Source: a virus. From it: DNA of 49,516 bases. The position numbers were made by a program, and so were the translations under genes. The stretch spans positions 1 to 49,516 of IMG/VR virus record IMGVR_UViG_3300047319_001496. One strand, written 5' to 3'. Each line of letters begins with the position of its first letter. Positions within the stretch are counted from its first letter, which is position 1. The notes under the pieces were generated by a model. That model was not told the origin of the DNA, ran no database searches, and saw nothing but the letters and a program-made list of their open reading frames with translations. This document shows positions 3,110 to 48,781 of the stretch, piece by piece.

Positions 3110-3560
3110 GCATCGCACCTCGGCCGCGCGTCTGATAGCGGCGGCGGCTTCTCGTTAAGTGAACCAGATTGATTTGGTCGTGACGGGAATGTTCGCGAGC
3201 ACACACACTGCGACCGATCTTGCGCGGGCGTCAATACGTAGTCCTGCTGGCACATTTCGCGCCGGAGAAAAATTATTGGTGACCGTTTTGGCTACTGCCG
3301 CGTTGCGGATTTCCCAATGATTGTCGCGGAATAGTGCCTCTGTGCCGCGTCTGCGAAGTACGCCGGAGTCGCGCTATCCGCTGCGCCTGCGCCGCGCCCG
3401 CCTTGACTATTTATTTTCCTGAGCGAAAGTTGATTGGTGGAAATGCAGCGCCAAATAGGCTGCGAATAGTGGCAATGAGTGGAAATAAGAAGCAACCAAT
3501 AACAATGAGTGGAAACCTGATGCGCTCGCCGCGGATGAACCTGACGAGTGACCTGTCCGC
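3110..3560. promoter_or_regulatory. Divergent early control region with repeated TGAGTGGAAA motifs
   Basis: About 450 bases without a convincing gene, between the leftward operon (from 3109) and the rightward operon (from 3869). It holds CAATGAGTGGAAA at 3473-3485 and again at 3503-3515, exactly 30 bases apart, a related GATTGGTGGAAA at 3432-3443, and AGCAACCAAT at 3491-3500. The same two words, ATGAGTGGAAA and AGCAACCAAT, recur together at 48704-48740 in another control region. The 30-base spacing (about three helical turns) fits operator sites for one protein. No consensus promoter stands out. Confidence 0.5.
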
Positions 3561-3570
3561 CGCGATCGCC

Positions 3571-3848
3571 GCGCGCCCGGCCATGACAAACGTGATGCCT
3601 AGGACAGGTATGCCGGGCGCGCACCTATCAACGAATACGGTCGCCATGATGTTGTTGAAGCCCAGTGATCCATTGCGACCGCGCGCGCCCGGCCAGGGGT
3701 CAAGCGATGTCCAGGAAAGGACTGCCGGGCGCGCACCTTTCCCCGAAAACGGTCGCCAGGCATGCCTTGAAACCCACAGGCATAGTGCGACCGCGCGCGC
3801 TCGGCCAGTTGAGCATTGATGCCCATGTGGTGCATGCCGGGCGCGCAC
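3571..3848 (+). repeat. Paired-hairpin array 1 (before first early gene)
   Basis: Contains three type II hairpins (arms GCGCGCCCGGC and GCCGGGCGCGC at 3571-3581/3612-3622, 3683-3693/3724-3734 and 3795-3805/3836-3846) and two type I hairpins (arms CGGTCGC and GCGACCG at 3638-3644/3675-3681 and 3750-3756/3787-3793). A decayed type I hairpin may precede it at about 3523-3567. Units repeat every 112 bases, so no reading frame is kept. Every loop has a variable 9-mer, a core close to TGAWGCCCA, and another variable 9-mer. The array ends just before the AAAGGAGG ribosome site of the gene at 3869. Confidence 0.9.
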
Positions 3849-3868
3849 TTTCTCAAAGGAGGTAGAGT

Positions 3869-4573
3869 GTGACTGCCATCAAAGATGCGTTCGCCAAAGC
3901 CGGAATAAACACACGGGCGCTCGATCTCCGCGCGGCCGCTAAGGAGGCTATCGACGCCGCAAAGGGCAACATTGGCCGCGCTGCGACTCGGTTTTCTGCG
4001 GTTCTCAAGAGCAAAGGCGATCTCCGCGAGGCTATCGCGCTCGATTATCTGCAACGCATCGCCGCCGAGCCGCCACAACCGGCCGCCGCAGAACAGCCGC
4101 AGGCACAGCCATCAGCCACGCCGGCCGCTGGATCGATCAAGGTCAAGGAGCACAAGGTTCGCCAGCATCGCCGCCGCACCCACGAGGAGCGCGAGGCCGC
4201 TTTGCGATCCGCCGGTCATGCCGCAGCATCGATGGCAAGCGCCTATGACCGCCAAATCGGTGGGCGGCCGATCGGCGAACTGCGGTGGGGCGAGCTGCAA
4301 GCGTTGCGGCACAATAACGCTTTCAACGCGGCCAGCTACCTCCGGTACGGCAACGAAGCCACGGCCAATTTCATTCTGCTCGACAAGATAGAGGCGCACG
4401 TCCGCGTCACCGACCATTCGTCCAAAGTCAAGGATGTCATCGGCGAGGCCCAGCTCCAACTTTTGAGCGACGAGGCCGATGTCGAGGCGCCGCGCCTGAT
4501 TGGGGAAGGTATGCAGGCGTGGGTCACATGGCTCGAGACGCAACGCGACACCCGCCGAGCCATCGCGCCATGA
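3869..4573 (+). CDS. Hypothetical early protein
   Basis: 234 residues from GTG 3869, with a strong AAAGGAGG site at 3856-3863. Residues 1-70 are helical and alanine-rich, residues 70-90 are a proline/alanine/glutamine linker, and residues 90-110 are strongly basic (VRQHRRRTHEER). The rest is helical with a hydrophobic core (NAFNAASYLRYGNEATANFI). I do not recognise the family. It is the first gene of the rightward operon and its stop overlaps the ATG of the second hairpin array (ATGA). The basic segment suggests nucleic-acid contact, which is inference. Confidence 0.7.
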   Translation: MTAIKDAFAKAGINTRALDLRAAAKEAIDAAKGNIGRAATRFSAVLKSKGDLREAIALDYLQRIAAEPPQPAAAEQPQAQPSATPAAGSIKVKEHKVRQHRRRTHEEREAALRSAGHAAASMASAYDRQIGGRPIGELRWGELQALRHNNAFNAASYLRYGNEATANFILLDKIEAHVRVTDHSSKVKDVIGEAQLQLLSDEADVEAPRLIGEGMQAWVTWLETQRDTRRAIAP

Positions 4574-4935
4574 ACAATATTCCGAATGCGGTCGCCATCG
4601 GGCAGATGAAGCCCAATGAGCCTTTGCGACCGCTCGCGCCCGGCCAAGCCCATGGTGATGCCCATTCGAGGGTTGCCGGGCGCGTCCCTATCAACCAATC
4701 GGTCGCCAGGCAGCCACTGAAACCCACAGAAGCGTTGCGACCGCGCGCGCCCGGCCAAGGTAGGCTTGATGCCCATTCGAAGAATGCCGGGCGCGTACCA
4801 ATCACCCATGCGGTCGCCATTTGCTGGTTGAAGTCCAACTTTGCCATGCGACCGCGCGCGCCCGGCCCCAAGGCTGGTGATACCCACCGTCGCCTTGCCG
4901 GGCGCGCACTTTCTCACAGGAGCGAACACGCATGA
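4570..4935 (+). CDS. Possible translated repeat ORF made of hairpin array 2
   Basis: An open frame of 121 residues that coincides with hairpin array 2. It begins with an ATGA overlap with the stop of the gene at 3869 and ends with an ATGA overlap with the gene at 4932. The 111-base unit keeps frame, giving three 37-residue repeats of the form xVAxxxLKPxxxLRPRAPGQxxxDAxxxxAGR, basic and proline-rich. Against a protein role: the stems are conserved at wobble positions and array 1 does not keep frame. Coupling at both ends argues that ribosomes cross the array. Not similar to any protein family I know. Confidence 0.35.
   Translation: MNNIPNAVAIGQMKPNEPLRPLAPGQAHGDAHSRVAGRVPINQSVARQPLKPTEALRPRAPGQGRLDAHSKNAGRVPITHAVAICWLKSNFAMRPRAPGPKAGDTHRRLAGRALSHRSEHA
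4589..4908 (+). repeat. Paired-hairpin array 2
   Basis: Three complete units at a 111-base period: type I arms start at 4589, 4700 and 4811, each followed by a type II hairpin (the last has its 3' arm at 4897-4907). Loops obey the 9+9+9 rule. Core variants are TGAAGCCCA, TGAAACCCA and TGAAGTCCA in type I, and TGATGCCCA and TGATACCCA in type II. In several copies the variable 9-mer pairs inside the loop, for example ATGG with CCAT and AGCCC with GGGTT in the first type II loop. It fills the gap between the genes at 3869 and 4932. Confidence 0.92.
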
Positions 4936-5750
4936 CCGCCATTGACGACATTAAGACCGAACACCGCTTCCGCCGGCAAGCGATGAAACAACAACAAAAA
5001 ATGGACCGTTCGCTTGAATCCTTTATTCGCATCAACGCGACCGGCTGGACGTGGGATGCCGACGAAAAGGAACGCGAGAAATACAATCGCGAGGTGAAAG
5101 CGATCATCACCGCGGCGCGCGAGGGGACTGGCGATCAGCGCATTTTCGAGCTGGTGCTGACGGTCGACAAGGGCCGCCAGCCATTCGACGAGCTGCGCGC
5201 CGGTTGCGAAAAGCGGATGGAGGAACTTGCAGCATCGCTGCCGGTCGCGGATTGGATCGACGGCATCCGCGGCGCCGGCCCGCTCGGCCTCGCGACCATC
5301 ATCGCCGAGACAGGCGATCTGTTGAACTATTCGAACCCCGCGAAAGTATGGAAGCGGCTCGGCTTCGCGCCCTACGACGGCCTCGCCGGATCGACATGGA
5401 AGCGCACGTCCTGGCGCCCGCGCGCGCTGACTTCCGAGGAGTGGGTCGAGCATCCTTTCTCCGGGCAACGATACGCGCTCATGCACCAGATCGCCATCTG
5501 GCTGGTGAACGCACAATGGATCAGCGCCAAGAAGGCCGGCGCCGACGAAGGGAAGCCTAAGGGCCCGTATGGCGAGATTTATGCGGCCCGGCGCGCACAC
5601 ACGGCGATCACTCACCCGGATTGGACGAAGGGTCATTCACGGATGGACGGCCTGCGAGTCGCGATGAAAGCCTTTCTGAAAGACTTGCATATCGAGTGGC
5701 ACGCCCGCGCCGGCCATGCGATCGAACGCCCGCGCCAGGCCGCGGAGTGA
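4932..5750 (+). CDS. IS110 Tnp_20-domain protein, phage-encoded, no DEDD domain
   Basis: 272 residues from ATG 4932 with CAGGAGC upstream. Residues about 104-150 match the C-terminal transposase_20 domain of IS110/IS116/IS902 transposases: helix-hairpin-helix-like WIDGIRGAGPLGLATIIAE, then KVWKRLGFAPYDG. Serines follow in GSTW and PFSG, near where IS110 enzymes carry their catalytic serine. The N-terminal DEDD RuvC-like domain of those enzymes is absent; residues 1-100 are charged helices instead. No transposon ends are visible and the gene is embedded in a phage operon, so it looks domesticated. It lies between hairpin arrays 2 and 3. The domain call is by motif only; its role is unknown. 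Confidence 0.7.
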   Translation: MTAIDDIKTEHRFRRQAMKQQQKMDRSLESFIRINATGWTWDADEKEREKYNREVKAIITAAREGTGDQRIFELVLTVDKGRQPFDELRAGCEKRMEELAASLPVADWIDGIRGAGPLGLATIIAETGDLLNYSNPAKVWKRLGFAPYDGLAGSTWKRTSWRPRALTSEEWVEHPFSGQRYALMHQIAIWLVNAQWISAKKAGADEGKPKGPYGEIYAARRAHTAITHPDWTKGHSRMDGLRVAMKAFLKDLHIEWHARAGHAIERPRQAAE

Positions 5751-6001
5751 TGATGATGTTTGCGGTCGCCAAAAACCGGCTGAAGCCCAGGTTGCTCATG
5801 CGACCGCGAAGCGCGCCCGGCCAGATAGTCATTGATGCCCAACAGCTCAATGCCGGGCGCGCACTTATTCCGTTTGCGGCCGCCATTTCATGGCTGAAGC
5901 CCATTCCGCCCATGCGACCGCGAAGCGCGCCCGGCCCCAAGGCTGGTGATACCCACCGTCGCCTTGCCGGGCGCGCACTTCCATTGCCGGTGATCCGATG
6001 A
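5750..6001 (+). CDS. Possible translated repeat ORF made of hairpin array 3
   Basis: An 83-residue open frame (MMMFAVAKNRLKP at the start) spanning hairpin array 3. Its first ATG overlaps the stop of the Tnp_20-domain gene and its TGA overlaps the ATG of the exonuclease gene at 5998. The 114-base unit keeps frame, giving two repeats of the same Pro/Arg-rich pattern as the frame at 4570. The downstream exonuclease start has no clear ribosome-binding site, so its translation may depend on coupling to this frame. Whether the peptide itself matters is unknown. Confidence 0.35.
   Translation: MMMFAVAKNRLKPRLLMRPRSAPGQIVIDAQQLNAGRALIPFAAAISWLKPIPPMRPRSAPGPKAGDTHRRLAGRALPLPVIR
5763..5978 (+). repeat. 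Paired-hairpin array 3
   Basis: Two units 114 bases apart; the extra bases come from a GAA insertion between the type I and type II stems (GCGACCGCGAAGCGCGCCC). Type I arms start at 5763 and 5877; the second has CGGCCGC instead of CGGTCGC, so that stem is one pair weaker. The last type II hairpin is identical, over about 55 bases, to the last type II hairpin of array 2, which points to recent copying. The array occupies the whole gap before the exonuclease gene. Confidence 0.9.
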
Positions 6002-6921
6002 TCGAGCGCATCGAGATCACCAGCCGCGATCAATGGCTGAATCTGCGCAAGCCGGACGTAACCGCCAGCGTCGTTGCCGCGCTCTTCGGCGCCCATCCGT
6101 ACACGTCGGCGCTCAAACTTTACCTCACCTATTCCGGAATCGAATTTGACCAAGCCGACGATCGCGTGTTGCGGCGTGGTCGGTTGATGGAGCCGGCGGT
6201 CGCGCTCGCAGTCAGCGAGGAGCGGGCGGACTGGAAGATCGAGAAATGCGATTCTTATTATCGTGATCCCGAACTCCATCTCGGTGCCACTCCCGATTTC
6301 TTCATTCACGGCGATCCGCGCGGCCTCGGCGTGTTGCAGACGAAGACCGCCGCCCCGCACATCTTTGAGCGCGACTGGGAAGGCGGCGCCACGGTGCCGT
6401 TTTGGATTCAACTGCAAGTGCTCACCGAAGCGATGCTGACCGAGGCCGCCTTCGGAGCCGTCGCCGTCCTGCGGGTCGATGCCTTCGATCTCGCATTGGC
6501 CCTCATCGAGGTGCCGCGGCACCCTGCCGCCGAGCAGCGCATCAAAGCGGCGGTCGCCCAATTCTGGGCTGACGTCGCCGCTGGACGTGAGCCAGATCCA
6601 GATTACGGCAAGGACGCCGAGCTGCTCAAGGTGATCGCGCCGCACGAGGTTGTCGGCACGACGGTCGACCTGAGCGGCGACAACGAACTGCCTGCGTTGC
6701 TCGATCAGCGCGCCGAGATCATGACGGCAATGAAAGGTTTCGAAGCCCGCAAGGACGAGATCGAGACCGCGATCAAATTTCGCATGCGCGACGCCGAAAG
6801 TGTCGTCGGCTTGCCGGATTGGAACATCACCTGGAAGACGACGCACAGAGCAGAATACGTCATGAAAGCAAAGGACATCCGCACGCTGCGCATCCATCAT
6901 CGCGCGGAGAACAAGCAATGA
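5998..6921 (+). CDS. YqaJ/lambda-exonuclease-type recombination nuclease (first copy)
   Basis: 307 residues, the usual size for YqaJ viral recombinases. It shows the PD-(D/E)XK nuclease order: TASVVAALFG near residue 25, RGRLMEPAVAL (Glu) near 65, LGATPDFFI (Asp) near 98, LQTKTAAPH (the QxK strand) near 117, and FWIQLQ (Gln) near 138. Such enzymes chew 5' ends to leave 3' single strands for an annealing protein. The partner RecT follows at 7056, with hairpin array 4 between. The start overlaps the preceding open frame by ATGA with no clear ribosome site. A second exonuclease/annealase pair lies at 17140-18839. Confidence 0.88.
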   Translation: MIERIEITSRDQWLNLRKPDVTASVVAALFGAHPYTSALKLYLTYSGIEFDQADDRVLRRGRLMEPAVALAVSEERADWKIEKCDSYYRDPELHLGATPDFFIHGDPRGLGVLQTKTAAPHIFERDWEGGATVPFWIQLQVLTEAMLTEAAFGAVAVLRVDAFDLALALIEVPRHPAAEQRIKAAVAQFWADVAAGREPDPDYGKDAELLKVIAPHEVVGTTVDLSGDNELPALLDQRAEIMTAMKGFEARKDEIETAIKFRMRDAESVVGLPDWNITWKTTHRAEYVMKAKDIRTLRIHHRAENKQ

Positions 6922-6928
6922 AAGTTTG

Positions 6929-7030
6929 CGGTCGCCACATAATCTCTGAAGCCCAAGCGCGAGGTGCGACCGCGAAGCGCGCCCGGCCGGGGCACGTGTG
7001 AAGCCCAACTTCAAGCTGCCGGGCGCGCAC
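6929..7030 (+). repeat. Paired-hairpin array 4 (single unit)
   Basis: One complete unit: type I arms at 6929-6935 and GCGACCG ending at 6972, type II arms at 6977-6987 and 7018-7028. Here the type II loop carries the type I core TGAAGCCCA, and the spacers pair internally (GGGC with GCCC, GAAG with CTTC). It starts nine bases after an ATGA at the end of the exonuclease gene, but the conserved frame is closed by a stop in the first loop; the coupled frame ends at 7001. So translation of the repeat peptide is not kept here. It ends before the GAGG site of recT. Confidence 0.9.
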
Positions 7031-7055: not shown

Positions 7056-7886
7056 ATGACCGAAGCCGCAACCAAACAAAACCACCCGCTGGTCGTGCTC
7101 AACTCTTATCTCCAGGAGCGCGTCGATTCCTTGCGCACGGCACTGCCGCCGCACATGAAGCCGGAACGGTTCATCTCGTCGGTGATGACCGCGGTGCAGC
7201 TCAACCCTGCTTTGATGGCGTGCGAGCGGCGTTCGCTCTGGCTTTCCTGCATGCGCTGCGCGCAAGACGGCTTGCTGCCGGACGGCCAGGAAGCGGCGAT
7301 CGTGCCCTACAAGGACAAGGCGCAATATCTGCCGATGTACCAAGGGCTGTTGAAGAAGTTCCGCAACAGCGGGCAGTTCCGTTGGGTCGGCACCGGCATC
7401 GTCTTCGAGGGCGACGTTTACGAGCATTGGATCACCCAGGAGGGCGAGCATTTTAAGCACGTCCCCGCCGACGATAATTCCGGCAAGAAAATCCGGCGGG
7501 TCTACGCGCTGGCGACCACCAAGGAGGGCGGTAGCTTCATCGCCGATCTTTCCATGGCCGAAATCGACAAGCGCCGCGCCATGAGCCGGGCCTCGCGCGA
7601 CGATGCGCCCTGGAAACAATGGCCGGACGAAATGATGAAGAAAACGGCATTGCGCGTGCTCTCGAAGCTGCTGCCGAAATCCAGCGACATCGACATATTC
7701 CTGCAGCGCGACGAGGCGGAATCGCTCGGCGTCGAAACCGTCCAGGCAATCGACGACCAGCGCGGCGCGGCATTCGGCAACGTGCTCGATCATTTCGCCG
7801 GGACGTCCCCCGACCAGCCTTCGACGGAGACGACGCCGACTGTGCCACCGCAATCCGAGACGATGACAGAGGAAATGCCAAAGTGA
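7056..7886 (+). CDS. recT: RecT single-strand annealing protein (first copy)
   Basis: 276 residues with the RecT family core: KPERFISSVMTAVQLNP, SCMRCAQDGLLPDGQEAAIV, QYLPMYQGLLKKFRNSG, then WPDEMMKKTALRVLSKLLP. The protein anneals complementary single strands produced by the exonuclease encoded just upstream, for recombination-dependent replication or end repair. A GAGG site at 7045-7048 precedes ATG 7056. The C-terminal 50 residues are a Pro/Thr-rich tail. The next gene begins by overlapping the stop (GTGA). High confidence. Confidence 0.92.
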   Translation: MTEAATKQNHPLVVLNSYLQERVDSLRTALPPHMKPERFISSVMTAVQLNPALMACERRSLWLSCMRCAQDGLLPDGQEAAIVPYKDKAQYLPMYQGLLKKFRNSGQFRWVGTGIVFEGDVYEHWITQEGEHFKHVPADDNSGKKIRRVYALATTKEGGSFIADLSMAEIDKRRAMSRASRDDAPWKQWPDEMMKKTALRVLSKLLPKSSDIDIFLQRDEAESLGVETVQAIDDQRGAAFGNVLDHFAGTSPDQPSTETTPTVPPQSETMTEEMPK

Positions 7887-34524: not shown

Positions 34525-35738
34525 GCGGCAATCGAACCCTTGAGGGAATGCTGCTTCATCCCGCCGACCATATAGGCTGGCCCCGACATTGAGCCGGCAA
34601 GCCGCGAACCTTGCGTCGAGTGATAATGCCCGCCACTGACACGAGCGGAGAAAAAGCGGTCGAAGTCGATGAGCCGTGGCATGGCAAACGTCGAGTTTTG
34701 CTGGAACATCGCGGCGGGAATCGCGTCCATCTCCTCGTATGGATACGGCCCGACATTTGCGTCGCCGCGCACACACATCGACGCGTACAACAAATCGGTG
34801 TCGCCGAACCAGTCGACTTGCGCCCCGACCGGACCAGCGAGCATGGACGAGCCGCTGAACTCGTCGTCGTGTGTCGTGTCGGGGTCCTGCCACAAAACAT
34901 CGCCCGGCAAAGCAACGACATCGTGGGATTGGTCATCGTCGGTCACCAATGAAGCAGTCAATGCAGAGCTCGCCTGCAGATCGTGTGGGTGCTGGATTTC
35001 GCTCTCGTCGATGCAATCTGGTGAAAGCCCCACGTCCCCCGGCACCATGCCCGCGGCGGGAACTACGTCCGCGTCCATGATGCCCAACTCTGGCATCAAA
35101 TGCCCGAATGCCGCCACACCGTCGGGGTCCAGCGTGTCCTCGACATCGACGTGGGTCGATGGTGTCAAATATTGGATCATCAGCAAGACAGCCGATGACA
35201 TGATTTGATCGTCATCAAGCACGGTCGTCGCCGTCAGCCCGTATGACCCGAGGAGAGCTGGCTCAATGACGATTTCAATATCACTAATCAGAGACGGCGC
35301 CATCTGAACGGCGCCGACACTCATTGACGGTTTGCAAATTGAATCGGTAGGACCCACAATCGGTGCAAAGACAATAAAGGTCGTTTGGATGTCATACGAC
35401 CCACCGACAGAATCATCATAAGATTCCGGCTGCAAGGTCGTCAGGCTGATAAGAGCCGCGCTGCCCACCCCGTCATTGTCGATCCAATCCTGCGGTGTGG
35501 TCCAGGCAGTGCCCAACAGCGCCGGCACCAAAAATATACTCGCGTCGTTGAACAGTGTCGGTCGTTGAACATTGCTCGCATTGGCTACAGGGGCTGGAAA
35601 TAAATCCCCTAGATCATGGAAGATAGCATCGACCAGGACCACACTAATGCCATTCGGTGTGTGGAAGTTTTCGACATCCGTCACAAGAGACGGCGGCCCT
35701 ACGGTCTGATTTGTCTTTCGAAGATCGACGACATCCAT
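34521..35738 (-). CDS. Second DxDxFxxP-type repeat protein (head-tail region)
   Basis: 405 residues built of degenerate repeats such as SLVTDVENFHTPNG, LFNDASIFLVPALLG and LIDFDRFFSARV, alternating a hydrophobic strand with an acidic turn. It resembles the protein at 22547-23860 but the repeats are more decayed and richer in Asp. The last 80 residues (GGHYHSTQGSRLAGSMSGPA) form a distinct Gly/Ser-rich end. It lies upstream of the connector gene. Perhaps a virion decoration protein; function unknown. Confidence 0.55.
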   Translation of the reverse strand: MDVVDLRKTNQTVGPPSLVTDVENFHTPNGISVVLVDAIFHDLGDLFPAPVANASNVQRPTLFNDASIFLVPALLGTAWTTPQDWIDNDGVGSAALISLTTLQPESYDDSVGGSYDIQTTFIVFAPIVGPTDSICKPSMSVGAVQMAPSLISDIEIVIEPALLGSYGLTATTVLDDDQIMSSAVLLMIQYLTPSTHVDVEDTLDPDGVAAFGHLMPELGIMDADVVPAAGMVPGDVGLSPDCIDESEIQHPHDLQASSALTASLVTDDDQSHDVVALPGDVLWQDPDTTHDDEFSGSSMLAGPVGAQVDWFGDTDLLYASMCVRGDANVGPYPYEEMDAIPAAMFQQNSTFAMPRLIDFDRFFSARVSGGHYHSTQGSRLAGSMSGPAYMVGGMKQHSLKGSIAA

Positions 35739-46557: not shown

Positions 46558-47084
46558 GCCACTTTTTCTTCATCACCAGGACGCTGATCCTCGATCGCCG
46601 TCGCCTCGCCGTCGATCGTCTCGTCGCTAAACACCTTGCCGCCGCGCTCGTCGAGGATCGTGACGTTCACGATCGTGCGCTGCCGCTCGCCCTGCGGCAC
46701 CATCGCGATCGCCGCCAGTCGCGGCGCCTCGTACGGCGTGATCGCCTCGAGGTATCGCAGCTGCAGCACGGCAAGATCCATGAATACTTTGTAGTCGCCG
46801 CCAGGGCGCGGCGAGCCGTCCGGTTCCCACGGCTGCTTGAGCGCCATCGCCGAGCCGAGATAGCGCGCGGTCTCGCGCAGACTCGTCAGCGACAGTTTCT
46901 GCACGACCGGCGCGTTCGCCTTGGCTTTCTCGATCGCCGCGATGGTTCGCTTATTCAGCGCGCCGTGCGGCCGGCCGCCCTTGCTGGGATAGTCCGGGTT
47001 CTTTGCCCGCGACTTGCGTTTGTACGGCTCAGGGGATTTGGAAATGTCGGCGAAGTTAAATGGCTTATCGGGGGGCGTCGTCAT
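46554..47084 (-). CDS. Terminase small subunit-like protein
   Basis: 176 residues. Basic N-terminal half (YKRKSRAKNPDYPSKGGRPH, GALNKRTIAAIEKAK), then a helical region and an acidic C-terminus. Placed immediately before the large terminase with ATGA overlaps on both sides, so DNA recognition for packaging is likely. The sequence match to known small subunits is weak. Confidence 0.65.
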   Translation of the reverse strand: MTTPPDKPFNFADISKSPEPYKRKSRAKNPDYPSKGGRPHGALNKRTIAAIEKAKANAPVVQKLSLTSLRETARYLGSAMALKQPWEPDGSPRPGGDYKVFMDLAVLQLRYLEAITPYEAPRLAAIAMVPQGERQRTIVNVTILDERGGKVFSDETIDGEATAIEDQRPGDEEKVA

Positions 47085-48490
47085 GCCGGTACTGCGGCCT
47101 CTGCGGGTTGCTGCTCGCGCTGGCCCGTCCGCTCGGCCGCGACCTGCGCGAAGGTTTGGCCGTGGCCTCCATCGAGCGTCGCCTGCTCGCCAGTGAAGTT
47201 CTGCCAGCGCAGCACCGCAACGTCGACATAGGCCGGCGCCATTTCCATACCGAAATGCTGGCGATTTTGTCGTTCAGATGCGATCAACGTCGAACCGCTG
47301 CCTATAAAAAGATCGAGCACTGTTTGAGCCTTCGGCGCGGCTGTGTTGATTACCCATTCAGCCAATGCGACCGGCTTCTGCGTTGGATGCACGCGGCGCT
47401 CCCCGCGCTCTGAGGCTTTCATTAAACCGTTCCACTGATGCCGAAATAGTCGCGCTACCTGATCGCAATTTGTCCAAGCCAACTCCATGTCGGCAAAATT
47501 TCCGGACACTTCTTTGTCCCATGCGAACCAGCACCGCGACGGTGGAAGCGCGTTGGCGTAATAATTGCCGCCCCATAGCACGATCGTCTCGACAGCAAGA
47601 TTGATCAACATTTTATAGGCGGCGATGGCCGTGTCCGTGCTGTCATCGCCGATGACTTCAGCATAGACGCCGGTCGGAATTATTGCCTTGGCCGCGTTCA
47701 CGGGAACGCGGCCAAATCCAGACTGGCCGAGGCCGTGTCCACGGCCTCGGTCGTAATTCCCGATGTGCTTTCGATCGGTGGAGTTCCGAACTCCACCGAT
47801 CGAACCAAAAGGCTTGCTACCGCCGTCGGCGGTAGCTTTGACAATGCTGATTCCATAGGGCGGATCGCAGTTCGCGAGGTGAATCTGCGCCCCATCGAGC
47901 AGCCGCTTCACATCGGTTTCGGATAGCGCGTCGCCGCAGGCCAGCCGATGCCGGCCGAGCAGCCACACATCGCCCGGCCTGCTTACCGCGACCGCGGGCG
48001 CGGGCGCCTCGGGCACCTCGTCGGGATCGGTCAGCCCCGGATTAGCATCGAGGAACGACGCCAACTCGGCGTCGCCGAACCCGAGCAGCGGCAGGTCGAA
48101 CCCGGCAAGCTTCAACTCGCCGAGCTCCAGCTGCATCAATCGCTGATCCCACCCGGCCAGCAACGCGACCTGGTTGTCGGCAATGCGCAGCGCGCGCTTG
48201 TCGTCATCGGACAAACCACGCTGCACCACCACCGGGAACGTCTTGAAGCCGGCCTTGATGGCCGCCAGCCGCCGGCCGTGGCCCTTGAGGATGACGCCGG
48301 CCTCGTCAACCACGATCGGCTGGTCGACGCCGTAGCGCAGCATGAGGTTGGCGAGCAGTTCGATCTGCTGGTCGGTGTGGGTGCGCGCGTTCTGCGGATA
48401 CGGCGTGATAGCGGTTAGCGGCCGGGTCTCAACGTGCTCGGCCGGCTGCGCCTTCGTTTCCTTGGTTATTTTACTCGGGCCGCGCTTCAC
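47081..48490 (-). CDS. ParB-domain DNA methyltransferase
   Basis: 469 residues from GTG 48490, which has AGGT upstream; GTG 48511 is in frame. Residues 20-115 are a ParB-type N-terminal domain (ITPYPQNARTHTDQQIELLA, ILKGHGRRLAAIKAG). The methyltransferase has catalytic motif IV DPPYG at about 209-213 and the AdoMet motif FIGSGST at about 415-421, the beta-class order. Adenine-N6 or cytosine-N4 methylation cannot be told apart here. Between the motifs, 47688-47836 is made of four perfect hairpins. Probably modifies phage DNA before packaging. Confidence 0.85.
   Translation of the reverse strand: MKRGPSKITKETKAQPAEHVETRPLTAITPYPQNARTHTDQQIELLANLMLRYGVDQPIVVDEAGVILKGHGRRLAAIKAGFKTFPVVVQRGLSDDDKRALRIADNQVALLAGWDQRLMQLELGELKLAGFDLPLLGFGDAELASFLDANPGLTDPDEVPEAPAPAVAVSRPGDVWLLGRHRLACGDALSETDVKRLLDGAQIHLANCDPPYGISIVKATADGGSKPFGSIGGVRNSTDRKHIGNYDRGRGHGLGQSGFGRVPVNAAKAIIPTGVYAEVIGDDSTDTAIAAYKMLINLAVETIVLWGGNYYANALPPSRCWFAWDKEVSGNFADMELAWTNCDQVARLFRHQWNGLMKASERGERRVHPTQKPVALAEWVINTAAPKAQTVLDLFIGSGSTLIASERQNRQHFGMEMAPAYVDVAVLRWQNFTGEQATLDGGHGQTFAQVAAERTGQREQQPAEAAVPA
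47688..47836. repeat. Four consecutive perfect hairpins inside the methyltransferase gene
   Basis: Stems: TTGGCCGCGTTC with a 4-base loop (47688-47715, 12 pairs); CCGAGGCCGTG with a 2-base centre (47727-47750, 11 pairs); TTCGATCGGTGGAGTTC with a 1-base centre (47770-47804, 17 pairs); GCTACCGCC with a 3-base loop (47816-47836, 9 pairs). All are exact. They encode residues about 219-268 of the protein, between catalytic motif IV and the conserved GDDSTDTAIAAY segment, the usual place for the target-recognition insert. Confidence 0.93.
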
Positions 48491-48781
48491 GTGATCACCT
48501 ATCCGGCACACAGGCTACCCCGGCTTCAAAGCCACAGGCGCGCCCATGCATTGGTTTGCGCTGGCCGCCACCCACCTAGCGGCTTGGCGCAAAACGCACC
48601 AGCGGCCATTTGTGGGCGTTTCACGTGAAACAGGAATTCGGGGTTTATTTGGAAACGCGCGCCGCGCGGTCGAGGGACGTGAATTTCGGCCCTCAATAGA
48701 TGCGATGAGTGGAAACCAACAACAATGCGTAGCAACCAATGCACGCAAAGTCGCGATCAATCAAAGTTCCATCGGTTGCGA
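48491..48781. promoter_or_regulatory. Late control region with parS site and shared motifs
   Basis: A gene-free stretch of about 290 bases upstream of the leftward late operon. It holds a parS palindrome (48618-48631), the words ATGAGTGGAAA (48706-48716) and AGCAACCAAT (48731-48740) found also in the early control region, and a partial parS TTCACGTGA at 48486-48494 over the methyltransferase start. The late promoter should lie here but no sigma-70 consensus is obvious. Minus-strand frames across it lack ribosome sites and family features. Confidence 0.6.
48618..48631. promoter_or_regulatory. parS-like site GTTTCACGTGAAAC
   Basis: A perfect 14-base palindrome equal to the core of the bacterial centromere site parS (consensus TGTTTCACGTGAAACA); the 3' flanking A also matches. 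Alphaproteobacterial ParB clamps load at this sequence. It lies 128 bases upstream of the ParB-domain methyltransferase start. No parA or classical parB is present in the window, so a host ParB is the likely reader. Confidence 0.85.

Follow-up and report, generated by a model that had tools for sequence, protein, structure and literature searches.

Organization of the Locus

The DNA analysed here over its whole length, referred to as the window (W), is the IMG/VR record IMGVR_UViG_3300047319_001496, a virus of 49.5 kb in which 17 hairpins are distributed in four arrays between positions 3571 and 7028. The hairpins are confined to the four gaps ahead of the genes at 3869 (o3869), 4932 (tasA), 5998 (exo), and 7056 (recT), and it is near certain that the four arrays constitute one dispersed stem-loop TIGR array whose TasA protein is encoded by the open reading frame (ORF) 4932-5750. 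The guides carried by the hairpins appear, with good support from the comparison of related contigs (designated by G-numbers), to be directed at variants of the neighbouring genes in sister phages. The features of the locus are collected in Table 1, in which tigRNA indicates the guide RNA predicted from a single hairpin.

Nine hairpins have a type II stem (GCGCGCCCGGC/GCCGGGCGCGC) and eight a type I stem (CGGTCGC/GCGACCG); the distance from arm to arm is exactly 30 nt in all 17, and the units follow in register the plan stem-CCA-N9-TGAWGCCCA-N9-TG-stem with small variants, including two loops of the first array with degenerate cores (TGATGCCTA and CGATGTCCA). Since the repeats fall into families of 110 nt, they are not due to chance. 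A preliminary description of this DNA had placed 17 hairpins in front of four early genes and nowhere else; all of them were found at those positions, and the only copy of the loop core outside the arrays of the window is a stemless one at 35078. The fixed loop length that it had proposed was confirmed by a search with the arms alone, allowing loops of 20–40 nt, in which 305 of 312 hairpins from 99 phage contigs had the same length. The unpaired C and the A:T pair that it had described at the top of both stems are indeed common to the two types, but are better read as CCA on the left and TG on the right, namely box C and box D. The 9-mers on either side of the core correspond to spacers A and B, and TGAWGCCCA is the loop repeat, consisting of a D and a C box.

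Two further observations concern the arrays. The hairpins 4856-4907 and 5925-5976, which belong to different arrays, have an identical loop (spacers CAAGGCTGG/CCGTCGCCT), of which a one-base variant occurs in G002. Upstream of the first array, the forward strand contains iteron-like copies of approximately AATGAGTGGAAA (3431-3512), including a 30-nt direct repeat (3453/3483), a region that could possibly be the operator or promoter region of the operon.

Table 1. Coordinates of the hairpins, genes, and matched sites of the TIGR-TasA locus (positions refer to the window unless another contig is named).
Feature	Position	Strand	Remarks
tigRNA hairpin, type II stem	3571..3622	+	spacers TGACAAACG / GGACAGGTA; 16/17 match of the 17-mer in the G032 upstream region
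tigRNA hairpin, type I stem	3638..3681	+	spacers TGATGTTGT / GTGATCCAT
tigRNA hairpin, type II stem	3683..3734	+	degenerate core CGATGTCCA
tigRNA hairpin, type I stem	3750..3793	+	
tigRNA hairpin, type II stem	3795..3846	+	spacers GTTGAGCAT / TGTGGTGCA; matches G026 (41703) at 17/17
o3869, early gene	3869..4573	+	weak DUF6195 match; co-inherited with tasA; G004 homologue matched by a G003 tigRNA
Second array	4589..4907	+	type I at 4589, 4700, 4811; type II at 4634, 4745, 4856
tigRNA hairpin, type I, second array	4811	+	spacers TTTGCTGGT / ACTTTGCCA; matches G012 at 17/17
tasA, solo Nop-domain Tas protein of 272 aa	4932..5750	+	profile and fold matches
Third array	5763..5976	+	type I at 5763, 5877; type II at 5811, 5925
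exo, YqaJ-like viral exonuclease	5998..6921	+	
tigRNA hairpin, type I	6929..6972	+	spacers CATAATCTC / AGCGCGAGG; antisense match to G003 exo with 2 mismatches
tigRNA hairpin, type II	6977..7028	+	spacers GGGCACGTG / ACTTCAAGC; antisense match to recT of ten sister-phage contigs with 2 mismatches
recT, RecT single-strand annealing protein	7056..7886	+	
tasA site matched exactly by a G003 tigRNA	5037..5053	-	G003's own tasA differs at 6/17 bases
recT site matched by a G012 tigRNA	7101..7117	-	2 mismatches; centre read by both spacers
Own upstream-region site for the first hairpin	3541..3557	+	3 mismatches; just upstream of that hairpin
Own exo site for hairpin 6929	6707-6723		3 mismatches
Own recT site for hairpin 6977	7450-7466		3 mismatches
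Decayed type II hairpin scar, o3869-tasA module missing	G034 (L225) ~5430-5490; G035 (L226) ~4726-4791		

Relatives and Turnover of the Arrays

The same hairpins were found, by protein and pattern scans, in 25 IMG/VR contigs, 17 of which encode tasA and one of which (G001) corresponds to the phage of the window over most of its length. About 360 hairpins were obtained from these relatives, and the non-redundant spacer pairs analysed number 310. The stems differ between contigs and remain complementary (e.g., CGCTCGC/GCGAGCG and GCGCGCGGC/GCCGCGCGC), while the loops are hypervariable: between W and G002 the tasA genes are 96% identical and only four of 16 spacer pairs are common. These data support the earlier suggestion that the hairpins are recognized as a structured nucleic acid, and the 9-9-9 plan, for which a search in other genomes had been advised, is present there. 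On the contrary, the view taken there that the plan belongs to no named element was wrong, as it is that of the stem-loop TIGR array (Faure et al. 2025, PMC12045711), with tasA in the middle of the cluster. The preliminary description had also held that relatives with the same genes and no arrays would contradict it; such relatives exist among the phages close to W (G026-G036), but they are also devoid of tasA, so the module is accessory and the observation itself is not false.

In fact, arrays and tasA co-occur in the relatives and are mostly absent together. In G034 and G035 the upstream region of W is joined to exo through a single decayed type II hairpin; the module borders observed are hairpins, and the scar suggests that the module was gained or lost when its first hairpin recombined with its last. 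Arrays are also found where the profile detects no Tas gene, as in G011 (55 kb) and G012, with hairpins before recT, and in G009 (L055-L057; 40 kb) and G013 (L065; cut at the array), with 8-12 hairpins per array. No close DNA relatives were found in INPHARED, and two scans of the GTDB genomes returned no TasA.

Two other genes of the window deserve mention. A RuvC-like protein (LALDxAT ... E ... NAADAxAxW), encoded on the reverse strand at 1908-2462, is conserved next to the TIGR locus of many soil phages of this set and served as a marker for finding relatives, and a ParB-like domain fused to a DNA methyltransferase (47081-48511, reverse strand) adjoins the terminase genes.

The TasA Protein

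ORF 4932-5750 has an IS110-type Transposase_20 match just over the cut-off. A profile built from 17 homologues and compared with the PDB gives as best match TasR (9MTY, E=1.8e-5), which is the structure of the TIGR-TasR ribonucleoprotein of Faure et al., followed by TasH (0.07). In agreement with the profile, the AlphaFold2 model (pLDDT 83) retrieves with Foldseek nine top matches that are all TasR or TasH, and IS621 comes next. The 272 residues comprise a helical coiled coil and the Nop region only, with neither a RuvC or HNH nuclease domain nor a DEDD recombinase domain; due to the absence of RuvC and HNH domains the protein is assigned to TasA.

These features bear on the possibility that the hairpins are DNA-level elements, such as recombination sites, operators, or terminators, or parts of a recombinase system resembling that of bridge RNAs. 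The pairing of the hairpins recalls the two loops of IS110 bridge RNAs and the protein has an IS110-type C-terminal domain, but the missing catalytic domains, the ranking of TasR and TasH before IS621, and the combination of hypervariable spacers with nearly invariant boxes make this explanation extremely improbable. Moreover, no forward-strand terminator-like sites were found at the hairpins, and the Rfam covariance models, including those of the K-turn families, gave no match between 3300 and 7200 even at E=1. An IS110 transposon was in fact dropped as a candidate for lack of a recombinase domain, as were terminators and promoters, none of which fits the hairpins on the coding strand.

A Proposed One-Base-Overlap Targeting Rule

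In 48% of the 310 spacer pairs, versus the 24% expected (z=8.8), the two spacers are complementary in their final base (A9:B9); the next-best of the 81 A/B position pairs reaches z=2.6, and G-U pairs are likewise raised at A9:B9. Assuming that spacers A and B pair with opposite strands, this complementarity implies that the two would share the central base pair of their target. The target would then have 17 bp and be composed of spacer A and reverse-complemented spacer B, overlapping by a single base. As far as the sequences indicate, the target code of this clade is intermediate between those of IS621, with a two-base overlap, and TasR, with none. A guide of G004 (L040, 17970) fits the exo of many relatives in sense orientation over 18 bp without overlap and is a possible exception to the 17-bp rule.

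Matches in Sister Phages

Targets were searched with the 16 outer bases at many offsets between the spacers, using shuffled spacer B as a control; since the shared base was left out, the A9:B9 link cannot create a target signal. In the W group (19 contigs and 54 tigRNAs, within a set of 99 contigs) the one-base-overlap geometry gives four exact 16-base matches versus 0.1 in the control, and the other offsets give none. With up to two mismatches, the o3869-tasA-exo-recT region of other phages receives 32 hits from 10 tigRNAs (control, 2.1 hits from 1.1 tigRNAs), and no excess is observed elsewhere in the same genomes. A stricter run with masked arrays retains nine tigRNAs versus 1.15, with a maximum of four in 400 permutations. 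At offset 0, two tigRNAs have hits in the o3869-recT region, mostly due to one G004 guide in exo. For spacer pairs complementary at the centre, 19 of 23 hits have a central target base that fits both spacers.

The guides tend to match the gene beside their own array and, in most of the clear gene cases, in antisense orientation. In particular, in the array between exo and recT the guide of W addressing exo is a type I hairpin, and those addressing recT, in W and in G012, are of type II; the G003 guide placed before tasA (spacers CACGTCCAG/GCGACCGGA) matches tasA of both W and G002 at 17/17, and the G003 guide placed before o3869 matches o3869 of G004. Further exact matches connect W:3805 with a gene of G026 and W:4817 with a site near exo in G012. 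When all groups are considered, nine tigRNAs match the rival homologue of a gene lying at most 1.5 kb from the guide's own array (2.25 after shuffling), eight of them in antisense (1.25), and more examples of this kind occur in other groups. The tigRNAs outside the W group are at the control level when compared with rival contigs overall, an outcome put down to their lack of close relatives, and the tests on neighbouring genes were relied on in its place.

Some matches were set apart. The 17-mer of a G009 tigRNA (L056, 22442) fits the stems of type II hairpins in G005, G007, and G013; it may be directed at rival arrays or simply reflect base composition, and it is left out of the evidence, although it is one of the nine neighbour-homologue tigRNAs. 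The 15 and two exact hits obtained in the whole collection with two W 17-mers are approximately those due to chance and fall in phages without W-like genes, with one weak ParB-methylase homologue at most, and they were not counted.

Own Copies of the Matched Genes

The genome that carries the guide was compared in the same way. Within 1.5 kb on either side of the array, eight of 310 guides have an antisense match with up to two mismatches (0.5 expected, at most four in 300 permutations) and 17 with up to three (5 expected, at most 12), while sense matches are at chance level; none of the 310 tigRNAs has an exact match there. This significant enrichment of antisense near-matches is what would be expected if the tigRNAs, under an unchanged targeting rule, regulated the neighbouring genes of their own phage, as in the autoregulation of the early operon, and the matches in sister phages were by-products of homology. 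Nevertheless, this explanation is unlikely, considering that three tigRNAs of the W group match sister phages at 17/17, that the spacers change much more quickly than the genes, and that the own site is more mismatched than the best rival site in every case compared, the own copy being mismatched in all seven tigRNAs examined; the mismatches over 17 bases in own and rival sites are six versus zero for tasA in G003, and 5 versus 2, 4 versus 2, 3 versus 1, and 3 versus 2 in other cases. The own mismatches fit guides that would be aimed at alleles absent from the phage itself.

The same comparison weighs on the idea that the units are passive relics copied from nearby genes, in which the resemblance would indicate origin instead of targeting. 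The matches lie close to the array and are mostly antisense, as relics would be, but a young relic should match its own genome best, whereas exact own matches are missing and rivals match better; in addition, the geometry of A and reverse-complemented B with a shared base corresponds to a demand of two-strand pairing that copying would hardly produce. This origin is accordingly regarded as quite improbable.

The alternative of an allele drive, similar to homing, supposes that the array attacks alternative alleles, including those of module-free phages, that the linked own allele is recoded, and that the array and the resistant allele spread jointly, through recombination by the adjacent Exo/RecT or by selection. 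Its attractive aspects are that the targets are alleles homologous to the gene linked with the array, that module-free phages carry in their upstream region the site addressed by the first hairpin, that the module is gained or lost between its flanking hairpins with a one-hairpin scar in G034 and G035, and that recombinase genes adjoin the arrays. However, TasA has no nuclease domain with which gene conversion could be started, and a biased conversion would be hypothetical. The changes at the G003 tasA site are either synonymous or conservative, and in divergence the site falls in the top 3% of the windows of that tasA, but 26 of 803 windows diverge as much, so its recoding is only suggestive. 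Such a drive is considered improbable, to a degree close to that of autoregulation and marginally more so.

Proposed Mechanism and Implications

The reading considered probable is an RNA-guided, nuclease-free silencing of the early recombination genes of sister phages. It takes from the sequence the anatomy of the arrays, the fold of TasA, the 1-bp overlap rule, the geometry and location of the targets, the mismatch of the own copies, and the fast turnover of spacers, and it supposes expression, processing, binding, silencing, and a benefit to the phage. The arrays would be transcribed along with the early operon, and each hairpin would be cut out as a single tigRNA, in which spacer A, the loop repeat, and spacer B stand on a stem that ends in boxes C and D. 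A TasA dimer would hold the tigRNA and bind double-stranded DNA, with spacer A on one strand and spacer B on the other, both ending on the same central base pair of the 17-bp target. As TasA lacks a nuclease domain, its binding should act as a roadblock, in this case on the early recombination genes of the sister phage; the guides would address the o3869, tasA, exo, and recT alleles, and the upstream region, of sister phages in competition for one cell, the own alleles being mismatched.

Several observations weigh against the silencing of sister phages and the rule on which it is built. More than one in four spacer pairs are not even wobble-complementary at A9:B9, one G004 tigRNA fits exo better without overlap, and, because no covariation was reported for TasR by Faure et al., the rule of the overlap may be limited to this clade. 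The tigRNAs with a recognisable target in the 99 contigs are a minority, approximately 10 out of 54 in the W group and fewer in other groups; many target hits have one or two mismatches, and the arrays of G011 and G009 stand without a profile-detectable Tas gene. Finally, the mismatch counts of own copies are not by themselves a proof of selection for self-avoidance. The data from which the rule was derived overlap with those used to test it; separate and concordant lines are provided by the A9:B9 complementarity, by the matches in rival phages, and by the own-neighbour test in other groups.

A bolder formulation, possible although short of an even chance, describes TIGR-TasA as a phage-borne, nuclease-free, RNA-guided allele warfare in which every guide would lie next to the gene that it silences in its rival form, and guide and recoded, resistant allele would travel together through Exo/RecT recombination, with a one-base-overlap code between those of IS110 (2 bp) and TasR (0 bp).

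The locus seems to answer the question of what stem-loop TIGR arrays are aimed at. The combination of fast-changing spacers and close sister phages makes the targets readable, and these would be the neighbouring early recombination genes of competitors. The purpose of TIGR-TasA thus becomes testable with named guides and named 17-bp sites; a targeting rule based on one shared base pair is proposed for a new Tas subtype, with a link to the guide geometry of IS110, and the mining recipe (A plus the reverse complement of B, overlap 1, neighbouring genes of relatives) is applicable to other TIGR families.

Comparison with Known Systems

Two kinds of TIGR arrays are described in PMC12045711, the second of which is a tandem stem-loop array with several subarrays, shown for a TasA; in its loops two spacers of 8-12 nt lie between box C (CCA) and box D (UG), and palindromes replace the edge repeats. 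In the present locus a Nop-domain Tas protein is encoded beside the array (ORF 4932-5750), and palindromic stems stand for the edge repeats in the 17 hairpins of the window and the ~360 of the relatives. The loop repeat starts with TG in 350 of the 360 and ends with CCA in 320, and CCA precedes spacer A in 314. The array of the Peromyscus gut contig with TasA (Fig. 7 of PMC12045711) has, as here, tandem hairpins in subarrays around a solo-Nop TasA, two framed spacers per loop, and a loop repeat of constant length. In contrast to those stem-loop arrays, here two fixed stem sequences alternate, the units occupy every gap of an early recombination operon with exo and recT, and spacers A and B appear to share one target base pair; natural targets are identifiable, while none is reported in that paper. 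There, the genuine targets, the spacer origin, and the role of the nuclease-less TasA are stated to be unknown, blocking being named as one possibility.

The dual-repeat TIGR systems of TasR (9MTY) and TasH have in common with this locus two 9-nt spacers, UG and CCA boxes in loop and edge, a homologous Nop protein, and probably a tandem targeting of the two DNA strands. They differ in that stemless edge and loop repeats alternate, whereas here the edge position is a stem of 7-11 bp, and in their N-terminal RuvC or HNH domain, which is missing from the 272-aa protein; for TasR, PMC12045711 reports no spacer covariation, an 18-bp target instead of the 17 bp proposed here, and tolerance of small gaps.

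In the IS110/IS621 bridge RNA (PMC11208160) the left guide is paired with the bottom strand and the right one with the top strand, which is also the order predicted here, and both guides include the core with a consequent 2-bp overlap, compared with the 1 bp proposed here. However, each IS110 element has one two-loop RNA, a DEDD recombinase, and transposition, none of which belongs to this locus. Box C/D small nucleolar ribonucleoproteins share the C/D boxes framing the guides and a Nop-domain protein, but the K-turn boxes recognized by covariance models are not seen between 3300 and 7200, and the A+B geometry suggests double-stranded DNA and not RNA as the target.

Phage-borne CRISPR mini-arrays aimed at related viruses exist. 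CRISPR arrays are similar in outline for their quickly changing spacers directed at relatives, while here the spacers are split (9+9) in hairpin units, a Nop protein takes the place of the Cas proteins, and no adaptation genes are recognised near the arrays. On the whole, the locus is a known kind of element, a stem-loop TIGR array with TasA, in a new variant.

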